Shown here: piece after piece, positions 5,636 to 58,126 of the stretch
Numbering within the stretch: position 1 is the first letter of the stretch
How the letters are laid out: each line of letters begins with the position of its first letter
Made by a program: the position numbers and the translations under genes
Notes under the pieces: generated by a model
What the model saw: only the letters and a program-made list of their open reading frames with translations
Databases searched by the model: none
Told to the model about the DNA's origin: nothing
Assembly: GCF_004959855.1 (NCBI RefSeq)
Contig: NZ_SPNT01000001.1
Location: forward strand, 186,001-250,000
Reading direction: 5' to 3'
From: Nitratireductor sp. XY-223
GTDB lineage: Bacteria > Pseudomonadota > Alphaproteobacteria > Rhizobiales > Rhizobiaceae
DNA length: 64,000 bases

Positions 5636-5670
5636 GCGTATTCCTCCATCATCGTTGTCGATGCACTATA

Positions 5671-5694
5671 CGCAATTAATTTACTATCATGCAA
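5671..5694. promoter_or_regulatory. Candidate XRE-cupin operator, copy 1
   Basis: Read on the minus strand the 24-bp element has the pattern TTGCA-N4-A-N-TAAATT-N2-TTGCR, giving two TTGC boxes about two helical turns apart. The same pattern occurs at 8038-8061. It lies 36 bp upstream of the 2OG oxygenase start, in an AT-rich gap. Confidence 0.4.
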
Positions 5695-5696
5695 TA

Positions 5697-6284
5697 TCAG
5701 CCCACGGAATTTTCTGCGTAATAGCCGATGACGTCGCCTTCGGTCGTCACACCGAGCCCGTTCAGGCTGCGGTTCACATAGTTGAAATAGCCGATGATCT
5801 GGTTGGCCTCGAGGATCTGGCCGTCGTCGTAACCGGCGGCGCGCAGGCGCTCGACGTCCGCCTCGGTCATGGCGGCGGGTTCGCGCGTGAGCTTGCGCGC
5901 GTAAGCCAGCAGCGCGATCTCGTCGGCGCCAAAGGCCGTTTCCAGCCGGTCTGCGCGCAGGGCCGCTTCCATCGCGTCCGCGCGCTTTTCATCGGCAATC
6001 AGGTGGCGGGCATTGGCCCAGTGGTTGGCAAACGAATAGGCGCAGCCATTGAGCAGCGAGACGTAGGAGGAGACGGTTTCCTGGAGCCAGGGGTGCAGGG
6101 TGTTGGCATCGTCGTGCAGTGCCGCCCGGTAGAGCATGACATGGCCGCGCATGGTGCTGGGTCGCAGCGAATGCACCCGCATGACATTGTCCACCGTTCC
6201 GTGCGGCGTCCGCGCCAGCGCCAGGGCGTCCCGAAGGTCGTCCCCGGCATCCTTGTCGTCGATCATCTCGATCCAGGCTGACAT
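5697..6284 (-). CDS. Carboxymuconolactone decarboxylase-fold (AhpD-like) peroxidase-related protein
   Basis: The 195-residue protein matches the CMD/AhpD-like 'uncharacterised peroxidase-related' group: helices carrying HSLRPSTMRGHVMLY and SSYVSLLNGCAYSFANH, and a second repeat with ADEIALLAYARKLTREP. AhpD has a CxxCxxxH redox site; here the pattern is CAYSFANH, so the first Cys and the His are kept but the second Cys is Ser. Classical disulfide-peroxidase chemistry is therefore doubtful. It sits between the oxygenase and permease genes in a leftward operon. Confidence 0.75.
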   Translation of the reverse strand: MSAWIEMIDDKDAGDDLRDALALARTPHGTVDNVMRVHSLRPSTMRGHVMLYRAALHDDANTLHPWLQETVSSYVSLLNGCAYSFANHWANARHLIADEKRADAMEAALRADRLETAFGADEIALLAYARKLTREPAAMTEADVERLRAAGYDDGQILEANQIIGYFNYVNRSLNGLGVTTEGDVIGYYAENSVG

Positions 6285-6320
6285 CGTTTTCTCCGGCCTC
6301 CTTGTCTTCTTGTATTTGCC

Positions 6321-7082
6321 TCAGCCCCGCTCATCGGCGCGCATGCGGCGCTCGAGCCAGCGCACGCCGGCCGACACGATGAGGATCAGAACCAGATATT
6401 CCAGCACCAGGATCGTGTAGATCTCCAGCGAGCGGTATTCGGTGACGACAAGCTCGTTGGCGCGCCGCGTCAGTTCCTGCATGCCGATGACGGAGACGAG
6501 CGACGACATCTTCAGCATGTAGACGAGCTGGTTGCCGAGCGCCGGCAGGATGCGCTTGATCGCCTGCGGCAGGATCACGAAACGCATGGTGTCGACATAG
6601 TTGAGCGAAACCGACTGCGCGGCCTCGTACTGACCGCGGTGGATCGACTGGATGCCGGCGCGGAAGATCTCCGCCTGGAAGGCGCTGTCGGACAGTGCCA
6701 GCGCGATGACGCCGGCCCAGAACACGCCGATCTTGATGTCGCCGAGCTGCGGCAGGCCGTAATAGACCCACAGGATCATCACCAGGATCGGAATGGCGCG
6801 GATGAATTCGACATAGGTGCGGTTGAAGAGCTTGAGATAACGGTTGTCGGAAAGGCCGGGCAGCGCGACGAGAAGGCCGAGCACGATGGATATCAGGATC
6901 GCCGTGAACGACAGGAGCAGCGTGTATCTGAGACCGCCGAGCAGAAACAGGAGGTTGGACATCCCGGTCTTGGTGGTCGGCGAGACCACGTACCAGCCCC
7001 AATTGGCCGAACATCCGGTCACCAGCAGAGCGAGCATGCAGACTGCGGCAATTCTGACTGCACCGGGTTTCAAGAACGCCAT
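6321..7082 (-). CDS. Polar amino-acid ABC transporter permease (HisM/GlnP family)
   Basis: The inner-membrane permease has 253 residues from the chosen ATG, which follows a strong AGGGAGGG ribosome-binding site; an upstream in-frame extension overlapping the ATPase gene was rejected. An N-terminal hydrophobic segment with a lipobox-like LLVTGCSAN is followed by five or so TM helices, the RAIPILVMILWVYYGLP segment of the His/Glu/Gln permease family, and the EAA loop (EAAQSVSLNYVDTMRFVILPQA) that docks the ATPase. It forms an importer with the ATPase upstream and the binding protein encoded divergently. Only one permease gene is present, so a homodimer is likely. Confidence 0.88.
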   Translation of the reverse strand: MAFLKPGAVRIAAVCMLALLVTGCSANWGWYVVSPTTKTGMSNLLFLLGGLRYTLLLSFTAILISIVLGLLVALPGLSDNRYLKLFNRTYVEFIRAIPILVMILWVYYGLPQLGDIKIGVFWAGVIALALSDSAFQAEIFRAGIQSIHRGQYEAAQSVSLNYVDTMRFVILPQAIKRILPALGNQLVYMLKMSSLVSVIGMQELTRRANELVVTEYRSLEIYTILVLEYLVLILIVSAGVRWLERRMRADERG

Positions 7083-44521: not shown

Positions 44522-46570
44522 CTAACCGCGCCGCCTGCGTCCTTCGCGGCGGCGCCGTCCACCGCCGTTGTCGGAGGCAGCCGGCTCGGCCCGGGCGGGA
44601 AGCGTGACGGCCCTGGCGAGTTCCGGGAACGCGTCGATCTTGTTCGGCAGGGCCATGGCGTTGACGAAATGCTCCTGGAACTTCGGTTCGAGCGCGGTCT
44701 CGATCTTCTCGATCGCCGTCACGGTCTCTTCGATCTCGCGGCGATAGCCGCGGTTGAGCAGCGCCATGCGCGCGCCGGTTCCAGCGGCGTTGCCGACGGC
44801 CTTGACCTTGTCCAGGTCGCAATCGGGAACCAGGCCGAGGACCATGGCGTATTTGGGATCGATGAAGGAGCCGAAGGCGCCGGCGAGACCGATCCGGTCG
44901 ACATGGGCGATGCCCTGCTTGTCCATGAGCAGCTTGATGCCGGCATAGAGCGCCGCCTTGGCGAGCTGGATGGCGCGCACGTCGTTCTGCGTGATGGTCA
45001 GGCGCGTGTCGCCCTCCCACAGGACGTAGGAGAAGGTGCGCCCGTCCTGGACGATGCGGTCGGTGCGGCTCGCGAGCGATCCGTCAATGACGCCGTCCTC
45101 GGAGATGATGCCGGCCAGGAACATCTCGGCAATCACCTCGATGATGCCGGACCCGCAGACGCCGGTGACGCCGGTTTTCGCGGCCTGGGCGGCGAAGCCG
45201 GACTCGTCCGACCAGGATTCGACGCCGATGACGCGCACCCGCGGCTCGAGGGTTTGCGGATCGATGCGGACCCGCTCGATAGCGCCGCTGGCGGCGCGCT
45301 GGCCGCAGGAAATCTCGGCGCCCTCGAAGGCCGGGCCGGTGGGCGACGAAGCCGCGACGACCCGGTCCTTGTTCCCGAGCACGATTTCGGCGTTGGTGCC
45401 GACATCGACAAGCAGCATGATCTCGTCCTGGCGGTGCGGGCCTTCGCAAAGGGTAGCGGCCGCCGCGTCGGCACCGACATGGCCGGCAATGCACGGCAGC
45501 ATGTAGACGCGCGTGCCGTGATTCAGCGCCAGGTTCAGGTCGGCCGCCCAGCTGTGCACCGCGCCCGATACGGCCAGCGCGAACGGCGCGCCGCCCAGTT
45601 CCGTCGGATCGATGCCGAGGAACAGGTGATGCATGATCGGGTTGCCGACGAAGACAGCGTCGAGGATATCGGCGGGATCGACGCCGGATTCGGCGCAGAC
45701 CTCCTCGATCAGGCCGTTCAGCGCGTTGTGGACCGCATTGGTCATCGCCTCCTGGCCGTCCGGGTTCATCATCACGTAGGAGACGCGGCTCATCAGGTCT
45801 TCGCCGAAGCGGATCTGCGGGTTGGACACGCCGGCGGAGGCGATCGTCAGGCCTGAGAGCAGCGACGACAGGTGCATCGCGATGGTGGTCGAGCCGATGT
45901 CGCAGGCGATCCCGTAGGCTTCGTTCTTCAGCCCCGGATAGAGCGCGATCAGGGCAGGGCGGGCGGTCTCCATGTCCCTGTGAATGGCGGCGGTGACGGC
46001 CCACTTGCCTTCGCGCAGGACCTTCTGGACCTTCGGCAGCAGATGCTGGTCGACGATGATGTCGGTAAAGCCCCAATCGCGCTCGAGCGCCAGTTTCAGC
46101 CGGTCGAGATCGCCGAGCGGCTTGTGCATGTCGGGTTCCTCGACCTCGACATAGCACATCTGGATCGCCGGATTGCGCTCGATCAGCCGCGTGTCGGCCG
46201 CCTTGCGGACGATCTGCGCGTTGACCTGGACATCCTGGGGTACGTCGATGACGAGATCGCCCTCGATCGTCGCCGAACAGGACAGGCGCCGGCCGTCCTT
46301 CAATTCCCGTTTTTCAGCGTAGCGTTTTTCCTTGGCGCCAAACGCGGAAACATGCGCGTCGGCGGAGGTAATGCCGTGCTTGGCGAAATTGCCTTCCTGG
46401 ATTTCGATCTGGCAGCGGCCGCAGATCCCGCGCCCGCCGCAGACGCTTTCGACATAGACGCCGAGCTGGCGCGCCGCCTCCAGGATGTTGGTGCCTTTTT
46501 CGAAACGGCCGCGACGACCGGAGGGCATGAAAAGGACCAGCGGGTCTTTTTCGCTCGCCTTCTGGTCCAT
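44522..46570 (-). CDS. ASKHA-domain corrinoid activation protein (RamA/RACo-like) with Arg-rich tail
   Basis: The 682-residue protein has an N-terminal plant-type [2Fe-2S] ferredoxin domain (CGGRGICGRC with a fourth Cys in RRLSCSATIE), a linker, and a C-terminal ASKHA ATPase domain (IACDIGSTTIAMHL near residue 220, LLVDVGTNAEIVLGN near 390). Such proteins use ATP to reduce inactive Co(II) corrinoid to Co(I) in methyltransferase systems. The protein ends with NGGGRRRREGRRRRG, an unusual Arg/Gly tail shared with other products of this cluster. The ATG follows AAAGGACACCAG. It is downstream of the methyl-THF methyltransferase gene. Confidence 0.87.
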   Translation of the reverse strand: MDQKASEKDPLVLFMPSGRRGRFEKGTNILEAARQLGVYVESVCGGRGICGRCQIEIQEGNFAKHGITSADAHVSAFGAKEKRYAEKRELKDGRRLSCSATIEGDLVIDVPQDVQVNAQIVRKAADTRLIERNPAIQMCYVEVEEPDMHKPLGDLDRLKLALERDWGFTDIIVDQHLLPKVQKVLREGKWAVTAAIHRDMETARPALIALYPGLKNEAYGIACDIGSTTIAMHLSSLLSGLTIASAGVSNPQIRFGEDLMSRVSYVMMNPDGQEAMTNAVHNALNGLIEEVCAESGVDPADILDAVFVGNPIMHHLFLGIDPTELGGAPFALAVSGAVHSWAADLNLALNHGTRVYMLPCIAGHVGADAAAATLCEGPHRQDEIMLLVDVGTNAEIVLGNKDRVVAASSPTGPAFEGAEISCGQRAASGAIERVRIDPQTLEPRVRVIGVESWSDESGFAAQAAKTGVTGVCGSGIIEVIAEMFLAGIISEDGVIDGSLASRTDRIVQDGRTFSYVLWEGDTRLTITQNDVRAIQLAKAALYAGIKLLMDKQGIAHVDRIGLAGAFGSFIDPKYAMVLGLVPDCDLDKVKAVGNAAGTGARMALLNRGYRREIEETVTAIEKIETALEPKFQEHFVNAMALPNKIDAFPELARAVTLPARAEPAASDNGGGRRRREGRRRRG

Positions 46571-46654
46571 CTGGTGTCCTTTCAGATCTGCGCGAATCAA
46601 CGCAAGCAACGTTGCGGCAGGATCCGTGCCGGGGCAAGCCCGGCACGCGCGGCC

Positions 46655-47608
46655 CTAGGCGCGGGCGCGGCGTCCGCCCCGCCGGCGGCCGCCAGTTGCC
46701 GCCGCGGCTACCGCGCCGTCGGCCGCGACCGGAGCCGCTCCGTTGGCCGGTGCGTGATCACGATAGGTCATGATCCAGTTCTGGCAGTTCGGGTCGGTGG
46801 CATTCAGGACGTTGGCGCCGTGGACCATCTCCATTTCCTGCGGACGGCAGGGATTCATGATCGCCGAGGTCATGCCCGACGCGATCACCATGGGAATGAA
46901 CGCGGCGTTGATGGCGTGGCGGTGCGGCAGGCCGAAGGAGATGTTGGACAGGCCGCAGGTGGTGTTGACGCCGAGCTCGTCGCGCAGGCGGCGCACCAGC
47001 CTGAACACCTGCTGTCCGGCCGTTCCCATGGCGCCGATCGGCATGACCAGCGGATCGACGACAATGTCCTCGGCCTTGATGCCGTAGTCGGCCGCATGCT
47101 CGACGATCTTCTTGGCGACGGCGAAACGCACGTCCGGATCCTCGGAAATGCCGGTCTCGTCGTTCGAGATCGCAACGACAGGAACGTCGTATTTCTTGAT
47201 CAGCGGCAGGATCGCCTCGAGCTTCTCGGTCTCGCCGGTCACGGAATTGACCAGCGGACGGCCCTTGGCCACTTCAAGTCCGGCCTCGATGGCGCCGGTG
47301 ACCGAGGAATCGATCGAAAGCGGCACGTCGACCAGGCCCTGGACGATCTCCAGGGTCTTGACCAGCAGTGCCGGTTCGGTTGCGTTGGGATCCACCGCGG
47401 TGACGCCGGCATTGACGTCGAGCATGGTGGCGCCGGCTGCGACCTGCGCCAGGGCGTCGGACTTGACGGTCTCGAAATTGCCTTCCTGCATCTCGGCGGC
47501 CAGCCGCTTGCGTCCGGTCGGGTTGATGCGTTCGCCGATCACGCAGAACGGCTGATCGAATCCGATGACAATTTCCTTGGTTGCTGATGCAACGATCGTG
47601 CGGGCCAT
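46655..47608 (-). CDS. Methyltetrahydrofolate:corrinoid methyltransferase (MtgA/AcsE-like)
   Basis: The 317-residue protein has a DHPS-type pterin-binding TIM barrel: GERINPTGRKRLAAEM, GATMLDVNAGV, PLSIDSS, NSVTGETEKLE, and GLSNISFGLPHR. This is the family that moves methyl groups between corrinoid proteins and THF (MtgA in glycine betaine systems, AcsE, MetH middle domain). Here it would load the betaine-derived methyl from the corrinoid protein onto THF. After the barrel comes an Ala-rich linker and a TGGRRRGGRRARA tail. A palindromic SahR-type site lies 36 bp upstream of the ATG. Confidence 0.87.
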   Translation of the reverse strand: MARTIVASATKEIVIGFDQPFCVIGERINPTGRKRLAAEMQEGNFETVKSDALAQVAAGATMLDVNAGVTAVDPNATEPALLVKTLEIVQGLVDVPLSIDSSVTGAIEAGLEVAKGRPLVNSVTGETEKLEAILPLIKKYDVPVVAISNDETGISEDPDVRFAVAKKIVEHAADYGIKAEDIVVDPLVMPIGAMGTAGQQVFRLVRRLRDELGVNTTCGLSNISFGLPHRHAINAAFIPMVIASGMTSAIMNPCRPQEMEMVHGANVLNATDPNCQNWIMTYRDHAPANGAAPVAADGAVAAAATGGRRRGGRRARA

Positions 47609-47618
47609 TAGGCAGTCC

Positions 47619-48524
47619 TCAATTCTGTGCTACGGTCGTAGAAGGATATAAAGATGTCTTTATATCCCATGTGCCGCGTTCTTCAAGCCACTCGGACGTT
47701 TTTTTCAGTCCGCCGAAGGCAAATACGTGAATCTGCCGTATGGGGGTGTCGTTGCTGGCGAGCACGTGCTCCTCGATCGGGCCGACGACATTTTCGGGCG
47801 AATGGGAGGTCGCAAGGGTGGTCAGCGAGAGCGCGTTCTTCTTGAGGAAGGAAATCGAATTGCCGACGCCGCACATGGCCGCGAACTTGATCAGCGTGGT
47901 GACCTTGGCGGGACCGGCGACACCGAGATGAACGGGCAGGTCGATGCCGTGTTCCTTGAGACCGTCGGCCCAGGCGATGAATTTCTGCGCGTCGAAACCG
48001 AATTGGGTGACGATGCGCAGCTTTGCGTCGCTGCGCTCGGCGAAGGACTTTTTCAGCCGCAGCGCCTGGACGGCCACTTCCTCTGAGAAATCCGGGCTGC
48101 CCTCGGGATGGCCGGCGATACCGATGGCCTCGACGCCGTATTTGTCGAAAAATCCGGTTTCAAGCACTTCCATTGTCGAGGAGAACTCGCCGGCCTGGCG
48201 CTCCAGGCCGCCGCCGATGACCAGCACGTTGCTGACGCCGGCTTCCTCGCTCATGCGCTTGACGCGCTCCTCGAGCGCGCCGCGGGTGGAAAGGCGACGC
48301 GACGCGAAATGCGGGACCGGCTCGAAGCCCAGATCGCGCAGGCGGCGAACCGCGTTCACCAGCGTGTCGGTGGTGTCCGTCCCGATATCGGTGACGTAGA
48401 CGTGCGTTCCCTTCGGAAACAGGTTGGGCAGGTCAGCCGATTCGACCGCCTGGCGCGGGGCCACTTCGATCGATGCTGCGATTTTCTCAGGCCGTTGCGG
48501 CTTCATTTCCACCACTGTCGTCAT
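47619..48524 (-). CDS. MetF-like methylenetetrahydrofolate reductase
   Basis: The 301-residue protein has the MTHFR TIM-barrel pattern: a Glu near VEMKPQRPEKI, VYVTDIGTDTTDTLVNAVRRL, PHFASRRLS, IGIAGHPEGSPDF and IVTQFGFDAQKFIAW. It is shorter and divergent from housekeeping MetF. In this operon it probably runs in the oxidising direction, turning methyl-THF from betaine into methylene-THF. The ATG at 48524 sits after AGGGAGAG; it overlaps the end of the upstream small gene by 38 bp. Its last codons contain a palindromic operator. Confidence 0.82.
   Translation of the reverse strand: MTTVVEMKPQRPEKIAASIEVAPRQAVESADLPNLFPKGTHVYVTDIGTDTTDTLVNAVRRLRDLGFEPVPHFASRRLSTRGALEERVKRMSEEAGVSNVLVIGGGLERQAGEFSSTMEVLETGFFDKYGVEAIGIAGHPEGSPDFSEEVAVQALRLKKSFAERSDAKLRIVTQFGFDAQKFIAWADGLKEHGIDLPVHLGVAGPAKVTTLIKFAAMCGVGNSISFLKKNALSLTTLATSHSPENVVGPIEEHVLASNDTPIRQIHVFAFGGLKKTSEWLEERGTWDIKTSLYPSTTVAQN
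47644..47667. promoter_or_regulatory. SahR-like palindrome inside the 3' end of the metF-like gene
   Basis: Perfect 11-bp arms GGATATAAAGA and TCTTTATATCC are separated by TG. The core ATATAAAGA..TCTTTATAT resembles the SAH-responsive (SahR, ArsR-type) operators reported for methionine/SAM-cycle genes. It lies 36 bp upstream of the MtgA-like gene. Confidence 0.7.
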
Positions 48525-48825
48525 TGTTGCCGGCTCTCCCTCCCGAATTGACAAGGTCAATCAGGCGCTCTTTGGTGTAATCCTCTTCCAGACGCGCGGC
48601 CGCCTTGTCGGCTTCCGCCTCCAGATCGTCGGAGACCGGTTCCGGTGTACCGCGCCGCCACTCGGCGAGATACTCGTCCGTTTCATGAGCTCCGGAGCGC
48701 ATCGCGCACATGTCGATGGCTTCGGTGAAACGCAGCGATAATTCGCGTTTCGCGCTCTTGCGGCCTTTCTTGACAATAACCTGCGCGGGTATGTCCCGCC
48801 AGTAAACGGTAATCAGATCAGCCAT
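48487..48825 (-). CDS. 'Virulence factor' (PF13769-like) small protein
   Basis: The 112-residue protein begins MADLITVYWRDIPAQVIVKKG and has RELSLRFTEAIDMCAMRSG, matching the small 'virulence factor' family found next to methylamine/betaine corrinoid genes; the name is historical. The C-terminus is acidic and Asn/Gly-rich. A strong AAGGAGA site fixes the ATG. Its biochemical role is unknown. It is first gene of the leftward operon with metF-like, MtgA-like and RACo-like genes. Confidence 0.72.
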   Translation of the reverse strand: MADLITVYWRDIPAQVIVKKGRKSAKRELSLRFTEAIDMCAMRSGAHETDEYLAEWRRGTPEPVSDDLEAEADKAAARLEEDYTKERLIDLVNSGGRAGNNDDSGGNEAATA

Positions 48826-48922
48826 GGGTGGTCTCCTTGGCGCGTACATAAGTAAAATCCGCCGGTCTGGCTTGCTGCGCGACGACGCGCAATGCGCTCA
48901 AAAACGACGTGTGCGCCGCAGC

Positions 48923-48928
48923 ATTATA
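48923..48928 (-). promoter_or_regulatory. Candidate -10 box of the corrinoid operon
   Basis: TATAAT on the minus strand lies about 100 bp upstream of the first gene of the leftward operon. The matching -35 region is poor, so this is tentative. Confidence 0.25.
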
Positions 48929-48991
48929 TACGGTTGGCCCGACAGGAAAAAAGCCTTGTATCCGCTGTTGGTTACCGGCCGTCAACGCACC

Positions 48992-49687
48992 CTACACGAC
49001 CGAGCTGAACAGCGCCGTCGTCAGGAAGAGAACGAGCGCGAAAATAAGCGTCGCGACAATGCCGATGATCGATCCGATCACAAGGCAGTTGCCGTCGTTT
49101 TCCGTGTGGGCAAGGCCGATCGTGGCGATGGCAAAGGCCGGAAGCCAGTTGCCGAAAGGTATCGGAACGACAACGATGATCGACATGAACAAGATGTAGA
49201 TGCCGAACAGGCGTTCCGACAGCGGGGTCGTGAGCGGCCAGTTGCGCGGGCGCACCCAGGCTTCCATCCATTTCAGCCACGGCTCAGAGCGCCGGACGAT
49301 CTTCTGAAGCGTCTTCTTGTCGAGGGTGTAGTTGGCGAGGCGTTCGGGCAGCCAGATCTTGTTTCGTCCGGCGACGATCTGCCAGGAAATGAATATCAGC
49401 GGAAGGCCCAGGATCAGGGTCGCGCCCGGCGGCAGCGGGATGAGGTTCGGAATCGAGAACACGATCAGAAAAGCGCCGAACGAGCGCTCGTCCAGAGCTT
49501 CGGCGATTTCCCGCAGCGTAATGCGCGGCCCCATGTTTTCCGAGATTTCCTTCAGCAGGTCGGACAGGCTCTCCGGGCGTTTTTGCCGTTTTGCCGAAAT
49601 ACCGGGAACAGAACCTTCTGCGGGCGTATCGCTCAATATTGTCTCTCTTCGGCTGTCGTACAATCTGTGTTTAATCCGTCGAAACAC
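48992..49687 (-). CDS. Exopolysaccharide synthesis ExoD family protein
   Basis: The 231-residue membrane protein has ExoD features: ITLREIAEALDERSFGAFLIVFSIPNLIPLPPG, followed by three or four TM helices (GIYILFMSIIVVVPIPFGNWLPAFAIATIGL, VIGSIIGIVATLIFALVLFLTTALF). ExoD affects exopolysaccharide and alkaline tolerance in Sinorhizobium. A TTG at 49636 with GAGAGA nearby is an alternative start giving a 214-residue protein. It is likely a separate transcript. Confidence 0.85.
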   Translation of the reverse strand: MFRRIKHRLYDSRRETILSDTPAEGSVPGISAKRQKRPESLSDLLKEISENMGPRITLREIAEALDERSFGAFLIVFSIPNLIPLPPGATLILGLPLIFISWQIVAGRNKIWLPERLANYTLDKKTLQKIVRRSEPWLKWMEAWVRPRNWPLTTPLSERLFGIYILFMSIIVVVPIPFGNWLPAFAIATIGLAHTENDGNCLVIGSIIGIVATLIFALVLFLTTALFSSVV

Positions 49688-49798
49688 GTATCAGCCGATC
49701 ACTAAGGCAATACGTCAACCGCATTCATCGGGATGCGGGCAACACATGTGGGACTTTTTGTGCAAATAGGCAAGGGGATCGCGTGCCGCGGTGGGCGG

Positions 49799-50410
49799 TC
49801 AGGCCGACTGCAGCGATGACGTGAGGTCGCCATAGCCGGTAAAGCGGTACTCATATTCAAGGCCGAGGCGCTCGGCGGCGAGGCGCGCTTTTTCCTGCAG
49901 CTCCGGGTCTTCCTTCTGGGACAGGTAAACCAGCTTGCGGTAATTGCCGAAATACATGTCGCGCAGTTCCGGGTGCCGGTCGAGGCCGAGAGGCTCGACG
50001 ATGAAGCTCTCGAACTGCCGGGCGAGGAAATCGGTCAGGAAGAAGGCGTCGATGTCGTCGTTCCATTCCTCGAAGAGGTCATTGCCGGCAAAGAAGGAAT
50101 AGCAGTGCGGCCCGGCAATGCGCTCCACGCCCTCCTCCTCGCAGACACGGTCGAGCAGGCCGCCGGTGCCGCAATCGGCATAGGCGACATAGATGCGCTC
50201 GAAACCCTCTTCGCGCGCCTTCTTGACCGCTTCCCGGACACCAGGCGCGATGCGGTCCGGATATAGATGCCACTGCGCCGGAAGGCAGGCGAGATCGATG
50301 TGCGAAAGGCCGTTGGCCTCGCACACGGCGAGGATTTCCCGCGCGATCGCACCGCAGCCGATGACGCGCACCGGCTTTTCCTGCGAAGATGTGTGACCCT
50401 GTTCGATCAT
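49799..50410 (-). CDS. DUF1638 domain protein of the corrinoid cluster
   Basis: The 203-residue protein has a Rossmann-like layout (VRVIGCGAIAREILAVCEANGL), Cys residues at DLACLPAQWHLYP, YADCGTGG and GPHCYSFFAG, and FEEWNDDIDAFFLTDFLARQFE. DUF1638 proteins are repeatedly found beside MttB/corrinoid genes but have no known activity; the conserved Cys/His suggest a metal or corrinoid ligand site. It probably lies downstream of the corrinoid-protein gene but after a terminator. Confidence 0.8.
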   Translation of the reverse strand: MIEQGHTSSQEKPVRVIGCGAIAREILAVCEANGLSHIDLACLPAQWHLYPDRIAPGVREAVKKAREEGFERIYVAYADCGTGGLLDRVCEEEGVERIAGPHCYSFFAGNDLFEEWNDDIDAFFLTDFLARQFESFIVEPLGLDRHPELRDMYFGNYRKLVYLSQKEDPELQEKARLAAERLGLEYEYRFTGYGDLTSSLQSA

Positions 50411-50427
50411 GGCGTTACTTATACTGC

Positions 50428-50459
50428 TAAAACAAAATGGCGGCCAACCCGGCCGCCAT
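50428..50459 (-). terminator. Terminator after the corrinoid-protein gene
   Basis: On the minus strand a 9-bp stem ATGGCGGCC/GGCCGCCAT with a 5-base loop is followed by TTTGTTTTAG. It separates the corrinoid-protein gene from DUF1638. Confidence 0.75.
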
Positions 50460-50487
50460 CCGCAAATCCGTTTTGGTTCAGGCGGCG

Positions 50488-51189
50488 TTATCCGGCGCTG
50501 GCCATCTTGTTGTGCTTGCGCTTCATGAATTCCTTGGCCGTCTCGACGGCAACGGCCGCGTCGCGGCAATAGGCGTCGGCACCGACGGCCATGCCGAATT
50601 CCTCGTTCAGCGGCGCTCCGCCGACCAGCACGACATAATCGTCACGGATGCCCTTTTCCTTCATCGTGTCAATCACGACCTTCATATAGGGCATTGTCGT
50701 GGTCAGCAGCGCCGACATGCCGATGATATCGGGCTCGTGCTCGTCGATGGCCTCGAGATAGTTCTCGACCGGGTTGTTGATGCCGATATCGATCACGTCG
50801 AAACCGGCGCCTTCCATCATCATGCCGACGAGGTTCTTGCCGATATCGTGAATGTCGCCCTTGACGGTGCCGATCACCATCTTTCCGAGCTTCGGAGCGC
50901 CCGTTTCGGCGAGCAGCGGCCGCAGGATGGCCATCCCGGCCTTCATGGCGTTGGCCGACAAAAGCACCTCGGGCACGAAAAGAATGCCGTCGCGGAAGTC
51001 CTCGCCGACGATGCGCATGCCCTCAACGAGTGCCTTTGTCAGCACATCGTAGGGCGCCCAGCCGCGGTCGAGCAGAATGGTCGTGCCTTCCTCGATCTCT
51101 TCCTTCAGGCCGTCGTAAAGGTCGTCATGCATCTGCTGCACGAGTTCATCGTCAGACAGTTCTGCTAGAATGATTTCGTCATCGGACAT
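50488..51189 (-). CDS. Corrinoid (B12-binding) protein, MttC/MtgC family
   Basis: The 233-residue protein has the helical methionine-synthase cap domain (residues 10-90, with FVPEVLLSANAMKAGMAILRPLL) and a B12-binding Rossmann domain carrying the DxHxxG motif in GTVKGDIHDIGKNLVG, plus GMSALLTTTMPYM and VLVGGAPLNEEF. It carries the cobamide that accepts the methyl from the MttB homologue encoded divergently. The first 35 residues contain 14 Asp/Glu and one Lys, complementing the Arg-rich tails of its partners. Confidence 0.93.
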   Translation of the reverse strand: MSDDEIILAELSDDELVQQMHDDLYDGLKEEIEEGTTILLDRGWAPYDVLTKALVEGMRIVGEDFRDGILFVPEVLLSANAMKAGMAILRPLLAETGAPKLGKMVIGTVKGDIHDIGKNLVGMMMEGAGFDVIDIGINNPVENYLEAIDEHEPDIIGMSALLTTTMPYMKVVIDTMKEKGIRDDYVVLVGGAPLNEEFGMAVGADAYCRDAAVAVETAKEFMKRKHNKMASAG

Positions 51190-51546
51190 CGGCGTTCCCT
51201 CGATGCTGGCGATTGTCGCGCTTTTGAATCACGTAAGTGTTTATCGTGAAAGTCTTATGCGGGAAAGAACCGAAAAGAGAGTTCTCAAAAACGACGCGCT
51301 CCAATCTGAAAAGCGACCCGTTTATTTCAGCGATCACCGCCGTTCCCGCAGATGGCGGGAACCTGTCGCCATAGCGTCACGGCTTGGCGCATAGAGAAAG
51401 GCGGCGGCCGGGCTGGGCACTAGGCTAAACGATAACGACAAACGCGCGAGTTACGCAGAAGTTCAAAGGGCTGCCGGCCGGCGCACTGATGCCGTAAACC
51501 AATGATAAGGCACAGGGCGCGCAATGCGGCAGGAAAGGTAACCGAG
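51190..51546. other. Divergent promoter region of the corrinoid and MttB genes
   Basis: This 357-bp gap has no gene. It contains a perfect 8-bp hairpin, GTTCCCGC at 51342-51349 and GCGGGAAC at 51355-51362 (loop 5), with no T-run, probably a regulatory structure in the mttB leader or a protein-binding site. No SahR-like palindrome and no recognisable cobalamin riboswitch box were seen. Confidence 0.5.
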
Positions 51547-53118
51547 ATGGAAGCTGAAAAATCAAGTTCCGGCCGCGGCGGAGGCCGACGGGGGCGCGGC
51601 GGTGCCGGCGGTGCGGCCGCAAGACGGGCCTCGCGCAGCGGCGGCGGTCCGGGCGAACAGCAATTCTATATCAGGCGCAAGGTCCGCGCGTACGAGGTTC
51701 TCGACGAAGAAGCCCTGGCGCTGATCGAGGCCAACGCCGAGACCGTGCTCGAGGAGATCGGCATCGAATTCCGCGACGATGCGGAAGCACTGGCGCTGTG
51801 GCGCGAGGCCGGTGCCGATGTGAAGGGCGAGCGCGTCCATTTCCCGAAGGGGCTTTGCCGGTCGCTGCTGAAGACGGCGCCGCAGGTGTTCACGCAGAAT
51901 GCGCGCAACCCGGAGCGCTCCGTCGAGATCGGCGGCAAGGCGATCGTGTTCGCGCCGGTCTACGGCCCGCCATTCGTTCGCGATCTCAACGGCGAGCGGC
52001 GCTATGCGACGATCCAGGACTTCGAGAACTTCGTGAAACTCGCCTATATGGCGCCCTCGATGCACCATTCGGGCGGGACCGTGTGCGAACCGGTGGATAT
52101 TCCGGTCAACAAACGGCATCTCGACATGGTCTATGCCCATATGCGCCTGTCCGACAAGCCGTTCATGGGCTCGGTGACCGCGCCGGAGCGGGCACAGGAC
52201 ACGGTGGACATGTGCAAGATCCTGTTCGGCGAAGACTATGTCGATCAGAACTGCGTCGTTGTGAACCTGATCAACGCCAACTCGCCCATGGTCTTCGACG
52301 AGACCATGCTGGGCGCTGCAAAGGTCTACGCGCGCAACAACCAGGCATGCATCGTGTCGCCGTTCATCCTGTCGGGCGCGATGAGCCCGGTGACGGTGGT
52401 CGGCACGCTGACGCAGATCCTCGCAGAAGTGCTTGCTGGCGCATCCTTCACACAGTTGATCCGTCCGGGCGCGCCGGTGTTGTTCGGCACCTTCGCCGCG
52501 TCGATTTCCATGCAGTCCGGCGCGCCGACCTTCGGGACGCCGGAGCCGTCGCTGGTCTCCTACGGCGCGGCGCAACTGGCGCGGCGGCTCGGTCTGCCGT
52601 TCCGGACTGGCGGGTCGCTGTGCGGCTCGAAGGTGCCGGATGCCCAGGCCGCGCATGAAAGCGGCGCCACCTTGAACATGACGCTGCTTGCCGGCACCAA
52701 TTTCGCATTGCACTCGGCCGGCTGGCTGGAGGGCGGGCTGGTGTCCTGCTACGAGAAGTTCATGATCGACGTGGACCAGCTCGGCATGATGCAGAAATTC
52801 GCCGAGGGCGTCGATCTTTCCGAAGACGCGCAGGCCATGGACGCGATCCGCGAAGTCGGGCCGGGCAGTCATTATCTCGGCTGCGCGCACACGCAGGCGA
52901 ATTTCCAGACGGCGTTCTACCGTTCGCCGCTGGCCGACAACAATTCCTTCGAGCAGTGGCAGCTGGAAGGTGAAAAACGCATCGAGAACCGCGCCAACGA
53001 GTTGTGCAGAAGCTGGCTCGAATCATACCAGGCGCCGCCCCTGGACGAGGGCATCAATGACGGGCTGCGGGACTTCATCCGCCACAAGAAGGAGGCGATG
53101 CCGGACGCCTTCACATGA
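51547..53118 (+). CDS. Non-pyrrolysine MttB-family methyltransferase with Arg/Gly-rich N-terminus
   Basis: The 523-residue protein belongs to the trimethylamine methyltransferase superfamily: VLEEIGIEFRDDAEALALWREAGADV, FAPVYGPPFVRDLNGERRYAT, MHHSGGTVCEPVDIP and HSAGWLEGGLVSCYEKFMIDVD. The frame has no in-frame TAG, so pyrrolysine is absent; non-Pyl members demethylate quaternary amines (glycine betaine in MtgB). With ProVWX and BHMT nearby, glycine betaine is the best guess. The first 35 residues contain a GRGGGRRGRGGAGG-type segment before the conserved fold. The ATG at 51547 follows AGGAAAGG. Confidence 0.88.
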   Translation: MEAEKSSSGRGGGRRGRGGAGGAAARRASRSGGGPGEQQFYIRRKVRAYEVLDEEALALIEANAETVLEEIGIEFRDDAEALALWREAGADVKGERVHFPKGLCRSLLKTAPQVFTQNARNPERSVEIGGKAIVFAPVYGPPFVRDLNGERRYATIQDFENFVKLAYMAPSMHHSGGTVCEPVDIPVNKRHLDMVYAHMRLSDKPFMGSVTAPERAQDTVDMCKILFGEDYVDQNCVVVNLINANSPMVFDETMLGAAKVYARNNQACIVSPFILSGAMSPVTVVGTLTQILAEVLAGASFTQLIRPGAPVLFGTFAASISMQSGAPTFGTPEPSLVSYGAAQLARRLGLPFRTGGSLCGSKVPDAQAAHESGATLNMTLLAGTNFALHSAGWLEGGLVSCYEKFMIDVDQLGMMQKFAEGVDLSEDAQAMDAIREVGPGSHYLGCAHTQANFQTAFYRSPLADNNSFEQWQLEGEKRIENRANELCRSWLESYQAPPLDEGINDGLRDFIRHKKEAMPDAFT

Positions 53119-53198
53119 AAGAAGCCCGAGGACGGCCGGGCTAAAGTGGCCAACCTCATTCACAGGGATGTCTGGCGCTCGGCGTTCAGGGATGACGA

Positions 53199-53888
53199 GT
53201 GATGCGCGACGGCGATCTCTACAACCGTCTTGATACGGCGCTGAAACGACACGGCCTGATGGCCCGCGGCGGGCTTCACCTGACCGAGGACGCGGATCTT
53301 GCCGCGCGCGAATACGGCTTTACCACCGTTGTGCTCGCCGGCCATGCGGGCTCATCGTTCTGGCCCGATTTCGAGACGTTCCGCTCGGGCTATGACGGGA
53401 CGCATCCGCTCGATGCATGGTCCCGTTCTGTCGGTTCCGAAATCGAATCGGAATTCGGCTGTAAAGCTTTGTATCCGTTCGAAAAACCCTGGTGGCCGTT
53501 TCAGAGCTGGATCAAGCGGACCGAGGGGCTGGAGCCGTCGCCGCTGGCCATATTGATCCATCCGGAGTTCGGGCTCTGGCACGGATACCGGGCCGCTTTC
53601 GCCTTTGCAGGCGAGATTGCCGTTCCGGCACCGGTTTCGCTCGCCCATGCGTGCGACAGTTGCGCCGAAAAGCCGTGTATCTCGACTTGCCCGGCTGAAG
53701 CGGTGGCGGCACATGACTTCGCCATCAAGGCCTGCCGGACGCATCTGGACAGCAACGCGGGCCGCTCGGGCTGCATGGTGTCGGGGTGCCTGGCGCGCAA
53801 CGCCTGCCCGGTGGGGCGGCAATATCAGTATGTCGAGGCGCAGCTGCGCTTCCACATGGACGCGCTGGAGCCCCTGGTGAACCGGTGA
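53199..53888 (+). CDS. Cys-rich ferredoxin-like protein, possible [4Fe-4S] electron carrier
   Basis: The 229-residue protein has an N-terminal domain similar to the start of epoxyqueuosine-reductase-like/ferredoxin proteins (RHGLMARGGLHLTED) and a C-terminal Cys cluster: CDSCAEKPCISTCP (near residue 150) and CMVSGCLARNACPVG (near 195), patterns suitable for one or two [4Fe-4S] clusters. It does not look like a full QueG. Placement directly behind the MttB gene makes it a candidate electron donor for corrinoid reactivation. Start codons at 53199 (GTG) and 53202 (ATG) both fit the AGGGA site. Confidence 0.7.
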   Translation: MMRDGDLYNRLDTALKRHGLMARGGLHLTEDADLAAREYGFTTVVLAGHAGSSFWPDFETFRSGYDGTHPLDAWSRSVGSEIESEFGCKALYPFEKPWWPFQSWIKRTEGLEPSPLAILIHPEFGLWHGYRAAFAFAGEIAVPAPVSLAHACDSCAEKPCISTCPAEAVAAHDFAIKACRTHLDSNAGRSGCMVSGCLARNACPVGRQYQYVEAQLRFHMDALEPLVNR

Positions 53889-53892
53889 TGCT

Positions 53893-54921
53893 TCAGGCGC
53901 GCCTGCGGCCGCGGCGCTCGCGTTTCGGCGCATCGGCTGCGTCCGCCGCGGTCTTGTTGCGCAACGGCCCGATCTTCTCGACGATGTCCTCGAGGCTGGG
54001 TTTTTTCGCCCGCTCATGGGTGTCGATTGCCGCGCGCATGGCGCGCAGGTGATCGCAGGACGTGCCACAGCAGCCGCCGATGATCGTCGCGCCCGCATCG
54101 ATCGCCAGGCGCGCGTATTCGGCCATCAGCGGCGGCGTGCCCGAATAGTGGATCTCGGAGCCGACGAATTCGGGGATGCCGCAATTGCCCTTGACGATGA
54201 TGGTGCCGTCCGGATTGGCTTCCTTCATGTCGAGAAGCGATGAGAGTATGTCCGATGCGCCGACGCCGCAATTGGCACCGACCGCCAGCGGCGGCTGTTC
54301 CACGTCGTTCGCGACGTTGTGAATGTCCTTCGGGTGCAGTCCCATCATGGTCTTGCCGGCGGTGTCGAAGGAACCGGTATAGGTATAGGGCATCCCGCAT
54401 CTGACGGCCGCCTCGGCTGCCGCGCGGATTTCGTCCGGCGCCGACATGGTCTCGATCCAGGCGATTTCCGCGCCGCCGGCCTTGAGGCCGTTGATCTGTT
54501 CCTCGAATGCTTCGACCGCTTCCTCATAGGTGAGGGCGCCGAGCGGCACGAGCAATTCGCCGGTGGGGCCTACGGAGCCCGCGACGATCACACGGCGTCC
54601 GGCGCCGTCCGCGACCCGCCTGGCGATCTCGGCGGCCTTTTTGTTCAGCTCAAACACCCGGTCTTGCGCGTGGTGAAGCTTCAGTCTTTGACGGGTGCCG
54701 CCGAAGCTGTTTGTCAGGATGATGTCGGAGCCCGCGTCAACGAAATCCTGATGCAGCTTGACGATCTTTTCCGGCGCGTCCTCGTTCCAGAGCTCGGGCG
54801 CTTCGCCGGATTCCAGGCCCATGGCAAAGAGGTTCGTGCCGGTTGCGCCGTCGGCGAGAAGAACGCCCTTCTCGGCAATGAGATCGGACAGCGGATTGGT
54901 CGATGCGGCGGGAGGGGACAT
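53893..54921 (-). CDS. bmt: Betaine-homocysteine S-methyltransferase (BHMT-like) with Arg-rich tail
   Basis: The 342-residue homocysteine S-methyltransferase-domain enzyme has DGATGTNLFAMGLESGEAPE, ILTNSFGGTRQRLKLH, the zinc ligands in GANCGVGASD and GGCCGTSCDH, and an MVHF-type barrel. It uses betaine (or a related methyl donor) to make methionine and dimethylglycine. The protein ends KRERRGRRRA, a basic tail not needed for the fold. A SahR-like palindrome lies 34 bp upstream of the ATG. The gene runs opposite to the Fe-S gene with a 4-bp gap. Confidence 0.87.
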   Translation of the reverse strand: MSPPAASTNPLSDLIAEKGVLLADGATGTNLFAMGLESGEAPELWNEDAPEKIVKLHQDFVDAGSDIILTNSFGGTRQRLKLHHAQDRVFELNKKAAEIARRVADGAGRRVIVAGSVGPTGELLVPLGALTYEEAVEAFEEQINGLKAGGAEIAWIETMSAPDEIRAAAEAAVRCGMPYTYTGSFDTAGKTMMGLHPKDIHNVANDVEQPPLAVGANCGVGASDILSSLLDMKEANPDGTIIVKGNCGIPEFVGSEIHYSGTPPLMAEYARLAIDAGATIIGGCCGTSCDHLRAMRAAIDTHERAKKPSLEDIVEKIGPLRNKTAADAADAPKRERRGRRRA

Positions 54922-55082: not shown

Positions 55083-56144
55083 CTATTCGGCGGCAATTGC
55101 CTCCTCATGGGCGACCGGGGTCACCATCGCCGCGATGACATCATGGATGTCCAGCGATCCAACCGGTTTGCCGCCGGCGTCGGTGACGTGGGCCATGGCG
55201 GTGTTGGCGTCGGTCATGGTCTTTGCCGCTTCCTCCAGGGTCGTTCCGGTGACGATGCCCATCCCCTCGGGATCGCCGGACAGCGGCTTCATGATCGTCT
55301 CGACCAGGATCACGCGCCCGCGATTGACCTCCTTGACGAAATTGGAGATGTAGTCGTCGGCCGGGTTGAGTACGATGTCCTGGCCGGTCCCCTGCTGAAC
55401 GATCTCGCCGTCGCGCAGGATCGCGATCTTGTCGCCGAGGCGCAGCGCCTCGTCGAGATCGTGGGTGATGAAAACCACGGTCTTGCGGATTTCCTTCTGC
55501 AGGTCAAGCAGCACCGACTGCATGTCCATCCGGATCAGCGGATCGAGCGCCGAGAAGGCCTCGTCCATGAGCAGGATCGGCGCGTCGTTGGTCAGGGCCC
55601 GCGCCAGGCCGACACGCTGCTGCATGCCGCCTGAAAGCTGATTGGGATAGCTCCTTTCGAAGCCGGTCAGTCCGACCCGGTCGATCCAGCGCTGCGCCCG
55701 CTCGATCTGCTCGGCGCGCGAGACACCCTGCACCTCAAGCCCGTAAACGGCGTTGTCGAGAACCGTACGATGCGGCAATAGGGCGAATTTCTGGAATACC
55801 ATCGCTGTTTCGTGGCGGCGGAATTCCCGCAGTTGGCCGGCACTCATCTTGCACACGTCGGCGTCGCCGACGATGACCTCGCCGGCGGTCGGATCGATTA
55901 GCCGGTTGATGTGGCGGATCAGGGTGGACTTGCCCGATCCGGACAGACCCATGACCACTTGGATGCCGCCGGCGGGCATCTCGATGTTGATGTCCTTCAG
56001 ACCGAGGACATGACCGTACTGCTCGTTCAGCTCGGTCTTGGTCATGCCCTCCTTGACCATGTCGACATATTGTTCGGGGTTCTTGCCGAAGATCTTGTAG
56101 AGATTTCGGACCGAAATGCCGGGGCTCGTCTTCGAATCAACCAT
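55083..56144 (-). CDS. proV: Glycine betaine/proline ABC transporter ATP-binding protein
   Basis: The 353-residue ATPase has the ProV-type N-terminal extension (VRNLYKIFGKNPEQYVDMVKEG), Walker A GLSGSGKST, signature LSGGMQQRVGLARAL, Walker B ILLMDEAFSALDP and a C-terminal CBS-like region. It powers betaine (and perhaps choline or proline betaine) uptake with ProW and ProX. The ATG at 56144 overlaps the ProW stop by 8 bp. Confidence 0.92.
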   Translation of the reverse strand: MVDSKTSPGISVRNLYKIFGKNPEQYVDMVKEGMTKTELNEQYGHVLGLKDINIEMPAGGIQVVMGLSGSGKSTLIRHINRLIDPTAGEVIVGDADVCKMSAGQLREFRRHETAMVFQKFALLPHRTVLDNAVYGLEVQGVSRAEQIERAQRWIDRVGLTGFERSYPNQLSGGMQQRVGLARALTNDAPILLMDEAFSALDPLIRMDMQSVLLDLQKEIRKTVVFITHDLDEALRLGDKIAILRDGEIVQQGTGQDIVLNPADDYISNFVKEVNRGRVILVETIMKPLSGDPEGMGIVTGTTLEEAAKTMTDANTAMAHVTDAGGKPVGSLDIHDVIAAMVTPVAHEEAIAAE

Positions 56145-57024
56145 GGATGACCTCCTGGTGCTTCTGCAGACGCTTGCCGAAGGCCTGGCTTGTGCGGTCG
56201 AAGATGATGGCGATGCCGACAATGGCAAGGCCGTTGAACACGCCGAGGGTGAAGTACTGGTTGGTGATTGCCCTCAAAACGGGCTGGCCAAGGCCCTGGA
56301 CGCCGATCATGGAGGCCACCACAACCATGGCCAGAGCCATCATGATGGTCTGGTTGATGCCGGCCATGATGGTCGGCAGCGCCAGCGGCATCTGGACGTT
56401 CTTCAGCCGCTGCCAATTGGACGAGCCGAAGGCGTCCGCCGCCTCCAGCACATCCTTGTCGACGAGGCGGATGCCGAGATTGGTCAGCCGGATAATCGGC
56501 GGGATGGCATAGATCACGACGGCGATCAGGCCGGGAACCTTGCCGATACCCAGAAGCATGACGACCGGGATCAGGTAAACGAAGCTCGGCATGGTCTGCA
56601 TGATGTCCAGAATCGGATTGACCACCGCCTGGACGCGGTCGGACCGAGACATGATGATTCCGATAGGGATGCCGATGAAAATGGCCAGAACCGTACACAC
56701 GAAGATCATCGATATGGTCTTCATCGTGTCTTCCCACATGTCGAAATAGCCGATCAGCAGCAGCGTGACGACAGAGCCGATAACAATGCGCAGGTCGCGG
56801 CTGGCCAGCCAGGCGATAAAGGCGATGATTATCAGTATTACCGGCCACGGCGTTTCCGTCATGAAGTCTTCAGACGCAATCAGAAAATGCTTCAGCGGCT
56901 CGAAAAACAGTTCGAAATATTCCCCATAGGCCCGAGTGAAGGACCGGAAACCCTCGTCGATCGCTTTCTTAAGCGCGCGCAGGCTCGCTCCGTTCATACT
57001 CGGAAACTCGTACAGCCATTCCAT
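56137..57024 (-). CDS. proW: Glycine betaine/proline ABC transporter permease
   Basis: The 295-residue permease has about six TM helices and the ProW loop with VNPILDIMQTMPSFVYLIPVVMLLGIGKVPGLIAVVIYAIPPIIRL, followed by the EAA-type motif EAADAFGSSNWQRLKNVQMPLALPTIM. It forms the membrane channel of the ProVWX system. Confidence 0.92.
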   Translation of the reverse strand: MEWLYEFPSMNGASLRALKKAIDEGFRSFTRAYGEYFELFFEPLKHFLIASEDFMTETPWPVILIIIAFIAWLASRDLRIVIGSVVTLLLIGYFDMWEDTMKTISMIFVCTVLAIFIGIPIGIIMSRSDRVQAVVNPILDIMQTMPSFVYLIPVVMLLGIGKVPGLIAVVIYAIPPIIRLTNLGIRLVDKDVLEAADAFGSSNWQRLKNVQMPLALPTIMAGINQTIMMALAMVVVASMIGVQGLGQPVLRAITNQYFTLGVFNGLAIVGIAIIFDRTSQAFGKRLQKHQEVIHG

Positions 57025-57082
57025 TTTATTGTCCCTTCCGACCCCGTGTGTGGACTTGTTCTTGTGGTTATTGCGTCCGGCA

Positions 57083-57112
57083 AAAACCCGGCGGGGCGAC
57101 CCGCCGGGTTTT
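57083..57112 (-). terminator. Strong hairpin terminator between proX and proW
   Basis: A 13-bp perfect stem (AAAACCCGGCGGG/CCCGCCGGGTTTT) around four bases, with a T-run on the minus strand. Placed directly after proX, it probably makes most transcripts end there so that the binding protein is made in excess over ProWV. Confidence 0.85.
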
Positions 57113-57118
57113 CAAAGA

Positions 57119-58126
57119 TTAGGAGTTTGCCAGGTAGTTCTTGACCTTGTCGGCAACGTCCGGGGTAACCCACGTGGTCCAGATGTCCTCGTGGTTTTCA
57201 AGGAAGTAGCGGGCACCGTCTTCACCGGTGGCCTGGTTGTCGACCATCCAGGCAAGCAGGCTGTTCACCGTCTTGTTGCCCCATTTGCGGGTGGCAAGAT
57301 AGTCGTAGGCAATGCCGCCGCGCTTCTGGAACTCGTCGGTCACGACCGTGTAGACCTCGGATTTCGGCCAGGCGTTCTTCTGCGGGTTCTCGCACTCGGC
57401 CTGGGACGTACAGGTGTCCCATTGCTCTTTGTCGTGCGGCACGCCGAAGCCGAGGCGAACCATCTCGTATTTGCCGAGAATGGCCGTTGGTGCCCAATAG
57501 TAGCCGAGCCAGCCTTCGTTGCGCTCAAACGCCTTGGCGATCGAGCCGTCCAATCCGGCCGCGGAGCCAGAGTCGATCAGGCTGAAGCCGGCCTTTTCGC
57601 CGCCATAGGCCTTGAAAAGATTGCCGGTCGAGATCTGGCAGTTCCAACCCGACGGACAGTTGTAGACCCCGCCCTTGGACGAATCCTCTGGATCCGGGAA
57701 CAGTTCCGGGTGCTTCAGCGCATCGTCGATCGTCTTGATGTCCGGATAGGCCTCGGCAATGTAGTTCGGGATCCACCAACCCTCGACGCCGCCATCGGCG
57801 AGCGACTCGGCGGCAATGTGAAGGCGGCCCTCGGCGACCGCGGCATCGACCGCGTCACGGAAAGCGTTGATCCACAGTTCCGGAGCGACGTCCGGCTGAC
57901 CCTTTTCGTTCATGGACGCGAATGTCGGCATCGTGTCGCCGGCGACAAGTTCCACATCGCAACCGTAGCCTTCGGAAAGGATGATCTGATCGATATTGGC
58001 CAGCACCTCGGCCGACTGCCAGTTCATCTGGGCAACCGTGACCTTCCCGCAGTCTTCGGCGGATGCGGTGTTGGCAAAGAACATGAGACCTGTGGCGAGC
58101 AACGATGAAGCGATAAGCTTCTTCAT
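57119..58126 (-). CDS. proX: Glycine betaine ABC transporter substrate-binding protein
   Basis: The 335-residue periplasmic OpuAC-type protein has a signal peptide ending near residue 23 (ANTASA), then CGKVTVAQMNWQSAEVLANI and multiple Trp residues (MNWQ, EGWW, EGWLGYYWAP, TTWVTP) suited to a cation-pi cage for betaine. The first gene of a leftward proX-proW-proV operon, partly attenuated by the following hairpin. Confidence 0.9.
   Translation of the reverse strand: MKKLIASSLLATGLMFFANTASAEDCGKVTVAQMNWQSAEVLANIDQIILSEGYGCDVELVAGDTMPTFASMNEKGQPDVAPELWINAFRDAVDAAVAEGRLHIAAESLADGGVEGWWIPNYIAEAYPDIKTIDDALKHPELFPDPEDSSKGGVYNCPSGWNCQISTGNLFKAYGGEKAGFSLIDSGSAAGLDGSIAKAFERNEGWLGYYWAPTAILGKYEMVRLGFGVPHDKEQWDTCTSQAECENPQKNAWPKSEVYTVVTDEFQKRGGIAYDYLATRKWGNKTVNSLLAWMVDNQATGEDGARYFLENHEDIWTTWVTPDVADKVKNYLANS

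Follow-up and report, generated by a model that had tools for sequence, protein, structure and literature searches.

By sequence, positions 44522-54921 of the window (the whole stretch of 64,000 nucleotides from Nitratireductor sp. XY-223 that was analysed, positions 186,001 to 250,000 of contig NZ_SPNT01000001.1 in assembly GCF_004959855.1) hold the known split methionine synthase and glycine betaine demethylase MtgBCDE together with its RamA/RACo activator, as this system is described in the main text of PMC12478193. Four of the enzymes encoded here carry Arg-rich segments at or near one terminus, which we refer to as tails and which are the subject of this work. The genes and features are as follows, with coordinates in the window.

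44522..46570, minus strand: RACo/RamA-like corrinoid reductive activator, 682 amino acids from its ATG (Pfam RACo_C_ter, Raco_middle, RACo_linker and Fer2)
44525..44569, minus strand: C-terminal Arg-rich tail of RACo, NGGGRRRREGRRRRG (window sequence; Arg counts in relatives)
46655..47608, minus strand: MtgD, methyl-tetrahydrofolate (methyl-THF):corrinoid methyltransferase (above the cut-off of NCBIfam NF005719; mean predicted local distance difference test score, pLDDT, of 86 in AlphaFold2)
46658..46696, minus strand: C-terminal Arg/Gly-rich tail of MtgD, TGGRRRGGRRARA (low pLDDT; Arg counts in relatives)
47619..48524, minus strand: short MTHFR-like (MetF2-like) protein, without a tail (Pfam MTHFR)
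49799..50410, minus strand: DUF1638 protein, without a tail (Pfam PF07796)
50488..51189, minus strand: MtgC, corrinoid hub protein, without an Arg tail (B12-binding domains)
51145..51189, minus strand: acidic extension at the N terminus of MtgC, residues 1-15 (the NF047996 match does not cover residues 1-14)
51502..53118, plus strand: MtgB, MttB-superfamily methyltransferase (Pfam MTTB, E 8e-231; solved chain 4yyc, 982 bits)
51571..51654, plus strand: N-terminal Arg/Gly-rich segment of MtgB (Arg counts in relatives; the 2qne alignment begins at residue 54)
53893..54921, minus strand: MtgE, homocysteine methyltransferase module, BHMT-like (above the cut-off of NCBIfam NF005718)
53896..53925, minus strand: C-terminal Arg-rich tail of MtgE, KRERRGRRRA (window sequence; Arg counts in relatives)

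MtgB probably starts not at 51502 but at the ATG at 51547, which is the choice of a simple codon-score gene caller.

An earlier reading of this DNA from its letters (the sequence-only reading) had set the cluster beside MttB systems and anaerobes with MtgABC. In the window, separate proteins carry the PF06253, B12-binding, Pterin_bind and S-methyl_trans modules (NCBIfam and Pfam), and a RamA-like activator and a DUF1638 protein are both present (Pfam), as expected for MtgBCDE; by contrast, MtgC scored below the NCBIfam cut-offs of the anaerobe-type models NF047995 (182 bits versus 310) and NF047996 (208 versus 370). The pathway is better described as an aerobic MtgBCDE split methionine synthase and betaine demethylase than as an MttB or MtgABC system of the anaerobe type. 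Its protein set is the one given in the main texts on Ruegeria pomeroyi and Phaeobacter inhibens, i.e. an MttB-type MtgB, the corrinoid protein MtgC, a pterin-binding MtgD, the homocysteine module MtgE, a RamA-like activator, a DUF1638 protein and a MetF2-like protein, with several MttB paralogues per genome (PMC12478193; PMC5764234). According to the same texts, MtgBCDE is among the major routes by which N-osmolytes are demethylated in the ocean, and parts of it are required for methionine synthesis in both species (PMC12478193, PMC5764234); in R. pomeroyi, MtgC and MtgD are required for methionine synthesis and for growth on glycine betaine (GBT) (PMC12478193). RACo was found in 35 of the 35 MtgD-bearing genomes searched. 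The metH model TIGR02082 aligns in consecutive stretches with MtgE, MtgD and MtgC, and MetH cobalamin fragments are found among the matches of the MtgC model; while the corresponding modules of MetH lie on one chain, those of MtgBCDE are separate.

The sequence-only reading quoted the four termini as we find them in the window, i.e. RACo ending in NGGGRRRREGRRRRG, MtgD in TGGRRRGGRRARA and MtgE in KRERRGRRRA, and MtgB starting with a segment of the type GRGGGRRGRGGAGGAAARRASRSGGGPG. It also called the four catalytic domains unrelated; they do belong to four Pfam families, but this wording is too strong for MtgB, MtgD and MtgE, all of which we take to be TIM barrels.

To follow the tails among relatives, we counted a protein as tailed if it has at least five Arg in the last 20 residues, a threshold chosen after the tails had been seen. 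Three sets of loci were used: the best 80 of 587 loci around MtgC, nearly all from Rhizobiales; 34 further MtgD-bearing genomes of the source's class from 23 families besides its own; and nine more genomes, two of them of another class. Counts were de-duplicated and loci cut by contig edges were excluded. The tail was present in 104/106 RACo proteins (62/63, 34/35 and 8/8 in the three sets), in 94/109 MtgD proteins (53/65, 33/35 and 8/9) and in all 80 MtgE proteins taken at a 44% identity cut, which removed one protein, L110 (50/50, 28/28 and 2/2); the N-terminal segment of MtgB had at least five Arg in 103/103 readable relatives (67/67, 32/32 and 4/4), four fragments being unreadable. Thus, where absence from close orthologues would have told against the sequence-only reading, the tails are present almost throughout, and the observation is stronger than that reading put it. 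Among the 15 MtgD misses, 12 have four Arg, one has three, one has two and one is L351, which has a broken frame. L351 and L007 (assembly gap and broken frame) were kept in these counts and excluded from the GC and composition, motif and RGG analyses. One RACo protein counted as untailed, that of G012 (L109/L119), has an Arg cluster about 40 residues ahead of its stop; these extra residues could reflect a frameshift or be a genuine extension.

By contrast, at least five Arg were found in 0/96 MtgC, 1/107 DUF1638, 0/69 ferredoxin-like and 0/26 MTHFR-like control proteins of the same loci, and in 0/107 C termini of MtgB itself. In the 43 loci of the 80 that have four complete genes, all four termini hold at least four Arg, and in 36 of them at least five. 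Within the source's class, tails were seen in genomes from 24 families. MtgD also occurs in 15/274 genomes of another class of the phylum; all 15 tails hold 6-8 Arg, and in two of these genomes (G266 and G525) RACo and MtgB are tailed as well as MtgD. In the flanks of the 80 loci, no recurrent further tailed partner was found, the largest cluster being three short proteins that end in RVRxNxRRL. Two MtgD matches lie side by side in G137 (C88), and two MtgC matches lie close together in G158 (C2).

The sequence-only reading had held that a terminal composition shared within one cluster is unlikely to be chance. In a sample of 1.264 Mb of the 6.19 Mb own genome, window included, with genes called by the simple codon-score caller and some calls spurious, at least six Arg in the last 20 residues were found in 12/1139 called genes, and RACo, MtgD and MtgE are three of these 12. 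Seven of the nine others could be named by Pfam, including two RNA-binding proteins, ribosomal protein S6 and an RNB/S1-domain protein of the RNase R type. In the 80 loci, 9/916 other genes reach six Arg and 25/916 reach five, while six Arg are reached by 63/64 RACo, 34/67 MtgD (55 at five Arg) and 37/46 MtgE proteins (46 at five Arg). At least seven Arg in the first 40 residues were found in 19/745 longer, better-scoring own-genome genes, MtgB among them; thus, the N-terminal Arg count of MtgB by itself is uncommon without being extreme, and it gains its weight from conservation. Together, the own-genome sample, the background of the 80 loci and the co-occurrence in 43 loci rule out chance as the origin of the tails.

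The tails are not confined to the four cluster proteins on which they had been noticed or to the cluster, since unlinked MttB paralogues also carry the N-terminal segment. The own genome has eight MttB-family matches and a single MtgC-like match (E 1e-10), and the Arg segment is present in all seven of the eight MttB-family members that were read. In a wider sample of 43 MttB proteins from 40 loci chosen among many more matches (two of the proteins are orthologues, the others are 26-55% identical), 41 have at least four Arg in the N-terminal segment; the two misses (L254 and L358) are tailed if an upstream start is used, and L363 is without any start codon. A distant subgroup (L357, L360, L361, L366 and L367; 26-28% identical) has a recurrent N terminus near RRGGRxARRAxRAAP.

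A second set, consisting of a RACo homologue (RACo2), a methyltransferase (MeTr2) and their own corrinoid protein (Cor2), occurs in 12/386 genomes of the class (e.g. G147, L322:5428-9108, and L377-L388). Here, at least five Arg were found in 0/12 RACo2, 1/12 MeTr2 (exactly five; three others have four) and 0/12 Cor2. Similarly, no Arg is found in the N-terminal segment of the MttB-like protein L325 (G057, 4869-7003), whose gene lies immediately upstream of a corrinoid gene of its own; an E 1e-80 search of the 386 class genomes for further such proteins returned the source (G057) alone. L324 was rejected as a second MttB control, because the position of its start is ambiguous and an Arg-rich segment would result from a start further upstream. 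None of seven full-length MetH C termini from these genomes, which differ in this from the split enzymes, reaches five Arg, the highest being four (L333). Finally, G029 and G125 are without MtgE and retain the tails of RACo, MtgD and MtgB, pointing to MtgC as the common factor. In total, these observations suggest that the tails likely accompany probable clients of MtgC, rather than following any one enzyme family, genome or gene cluster.

Most of the Arg clusters lie no more than 15 residues from the end and follow stretches rich in Ala, Gly, Pro, Ser and Thr. For MtgD, and for MtgD only, disorder was predicted: residues 298-317 have a pLDDT below 50 in AlphaFold2. The catalytic cores align nearly full length with the solved relatives 2qne (MtgB-like), 3zyy (RACo) and 2yci (MeTr), while the Arg segments fall outside these matches, which start at MtgB residue 54 and extend to RACo residue 649 and MtgD residue 284, respectively. 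These structures and the MttB-MttC complex 7xcn are, we assume, mostly of anaerobic origin. The solved close relative of MtgB, 4yyc, has the N-terminal Arg segment in its sequence. GRRxR is the commonest element shared by the tails (24/107 to 57/103 or 57/105 per family), as judged by a weak shuffle test that keeps composition and not relatedness. By definition, a canonical RGG/RG box has two RGG spaced by up to four residues, or three RG at the same spacing. Two RGG were found in 0/105 RACo, 2/107 MtgD and 0/80 MtgE tails and in 3/103 MtgB segments, and three RG in no RACo, MtgD or MtgE tail and in 14/103 MtgB segments; in the window, the MtgB segment satisfies this definition, while the RACo, MtgD and MtgE tails do not.

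MtgC is the single protein that MtgB, MtgD, MtgE and RACo should all meet. Because it is the sole partner common to the four enzymes, we interpret the tails as client tags by which the separate modules stay close to the hub. Specifically, we consider it somewhat better than an even chance that they are disordered, Arg-specific tags gathering separate methyltransferases around MtgC as a shared corrinoid hub; this is based on sequence comparisons. MtgB and the MttB-type paralogues as methyl donors, MtgD acting with methyl-THF, MtgE acting with homocysteine and RACo re-reducing cob(II)alamin would be separate polypeptides alternating on one MtgC. Each would carry a flexible stretch with a terminal or near-terminal Arg cluster, behind the catalytic domain in RACo, MtgD and MtgE and ahead of it in the MtgB family, and the cluster would bind the acidic hub weakly and multivalently, perhaps at the family-specific acidic N-terminal extension and the cap helices of MtgC. 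In this way, competing enzymes would be held close to MtgC in fast exchange. The physical contact between tail and MtgC, its site on MtgC and any effect on flux are what we infer from these comparisons. The presence of tails on four Pfam families and at two different ends, with the hub itself untailed, favours such a role.

The sequence-only reading had proposed that the tails recruit the enzymes to the corrinoid protein, or to RNA or another polyanion, and had pointed to the acidic N terminus of MtgC, with 14 Asp/Glu and one Lys in residues 1-35, a number that a count by eye bears out. Over 108 sequences, the median charge of MtgC is -13 in the first 35 residues and -19 overall; Leu is present at positions 8, 11 and 16 in 108/108 sequences, and Asp/Glu in 93-99% at residues 3-5 and 13-15. 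The anaerobic MtgC profile does not include this family-specific extension in its match. The best match of the MtgC model in the PDB is the corrinoid chain of 7xcn. Of the proposed recruitment to the corrinoid protein, the part that stands is that the tails are real, conserved, specific to the system and not driven by GC; that the acidic N terminus is their receptor is unproven, since other corrinoid proteins are as acidic.

Several observations weigh against a hub with client tags. Four other corrinoid proteins of the class have net charges of -9 to -24, compared with the MtgC median of -19, although for these proteins the last ATG ahead of the match was taken as the start, so that their N termini may be short; the partners next to two of them (L322 and L325) have no tails. 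Acidity is therefore ruled out as a feature unique to MtgC and alone cannot single it out. In the AlphaFold2 model, MtgC is predicted to be helical from residue 13 on and not an open receptor. A strict motif common to the four families was not found among the tails. The comparisons with the second set and with the MttB paralogues (41/43) point to tails that track the partner; however, RACo2 and MeTr2 form separate subfamilies, so that partner and lineage are confounded, and the MttB control for an own corrinoid protein is one protein, L325. The sequences are related to one another, and the conservation counts are therefore non-independent. The MtgE of G044 (L110, 43% identical and thus below the cut) is untailed beside tailed partners. 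Finally, the P. inhibens MtgE, Bmt, forms methionine from dimethylsulfoniopropionate or betaine unaided in vitro, according to the main text of PMC12366255, suggesting that MtgE may not always need MtgC.

Two neighbours of the cluster were noticed by eye. The protein encoded at 53199-53888 is ferredoxin-like (CxxCxxxPCxxxCP), without an NCBIfam or Pfam match, and is a candidate electron donor for RACo; it was matched in 67/80 loci, a count that does not extend to exact adjacency. At 55083-58126, an ABC transporter that resembles the glycine betaine type (ATPase, permease and binding protein) adjoins the cluster and fits a role in betaine demethylation.

Four other explanations of the tails were considered. 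With a genome of 62% GC and GC-rich CGN codons, the tails might be functionless, GC-driven terminal extensions, and the Arg number in MtgE correlates weakly with the GC content at third codon positions (GC3; Spearman 0.23, p 0.04). However, RACo shows no correlation (0.11, p 0.26) and MtgD the reverse (-0.32, p 0.0008), and over 292 tails the last 25 residues hold 7.0 Arg where GC3 is below 0.6 (n=22), then 6.8 (n=45) and 6.6 (n=204), and 6.3 above 0.9 (n=21). In G045, with GC3 of 0.21-0.24, three tails hold 6, 6 and 9 Arg while the protein bodies have more Lys than Arg; R/(R+K) is 0.85-0.96 in tails versus 0.55-0.61 in bodies, and 0.85 versus 0.55 at GC3 below 0.6. The persistence of tails at such low GC3 and a preference for Arg over Lys far above that of the bodies argue against GC drift, as do the untailed neighbouring genes and second corrinoid set. 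We therefore reject this explanation as having next to no chance, and the equal frequency on unrelated genes that it would bring was not seen. The tails could also act on their own enzyme, in oligomer assembly, in stability or in binding polyglutamyl-folate or the phosphate of cobalamin, and have become alike by convergence. The local habits of each family, i.e. RRGGRxxR in MtgD, RERR in MtgE and [AEG]ARRA in MtgB, are in line with this; we consider it improbable because the corrinoid protein is, from what is known of these families, the only partner they share, and because the MttB paralogues and the other three families are tailed while RACo2 and MeTr2 mostly are not.

Arg/Gly-rich tails are known from RNA binders, and the tails might bind RNA, polyphosphate or another soluble polyanion, giving a polyanion-scaffolded cluster or condensate without direct docking to MtgC. 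The preference for Arg over Lys and the occurrence of S6 and the RNase R-type protein among the nine other own-genome proteins with such C termini are consistent with this; nevertheless, a general scaffold need not follow the corrinoid partner, while MtgC is untailed and the second-set homologues mostly are, and we regard this possibility, the next best after docking on MtgC, as rather unlikely. Polybasic tails can also bind acidic lipids, and the enzymes might be tethered to the inner membrane or, close to an electron donor or a transporter, to some other anchor; the ferredoxin-like gene and the ABC transporter beside the cluster could suggest this. Since no hydrophobic element was noticed by eye in the tails and MtgC and the ferredoxin-like protein are untailed, we consider such anchoring very unlikely.

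Docking elements are known from other split assemblies, such as the docking domains of polyketide synthases and the basic repeats of CsoS2 on Rubisco. These are likewise short, partly disordered terminal elements joining separate catalytic chains; the difference is that here one Arg-rich composition is common to several enzyme families of one corrinoid protein. In the main texts of the split-synthase papers PMC12478193, PMC5764234 and PMC12366255, the tails are unmentioned (the word 'tail' has no occurrence, and neither has 'arginine' in two of them, PMC12366255 included), supplements lying outside this search. Similarly, no earlier description of a shared Arg tag was found among 5.39 million open-access papers, subscription papers and supplements lying outside the search, in agreement with the statement in the sequence-only reading that no tail of this kind has been described. 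Thus, the MtgBCDE system is known, while the shared Arg tag is new as far as the open-access literature shows.

We found no description of how at least four enzymes share one corrinoid protein, and a common tag would explain it. Tentatively, with a chance that falls a little short of even, there may be one compositional code in aerobic proteobacteria, in which a disordered Arg-rich terminal tag enrols any methyltransferase into a shared corrinoid hub; the gain of a tag would plug a new MttB paralogue into MtgC, and an open, expandable electrostatic metabolon would replace the covalent linkage of MetH. If a common tag is true, it would allow one to tell from sequence which of the many MttB paralogues use MtgC, and the system would be a clear natural case of a multidomain enzyme that was split and then re-joined by disordered charged tails.

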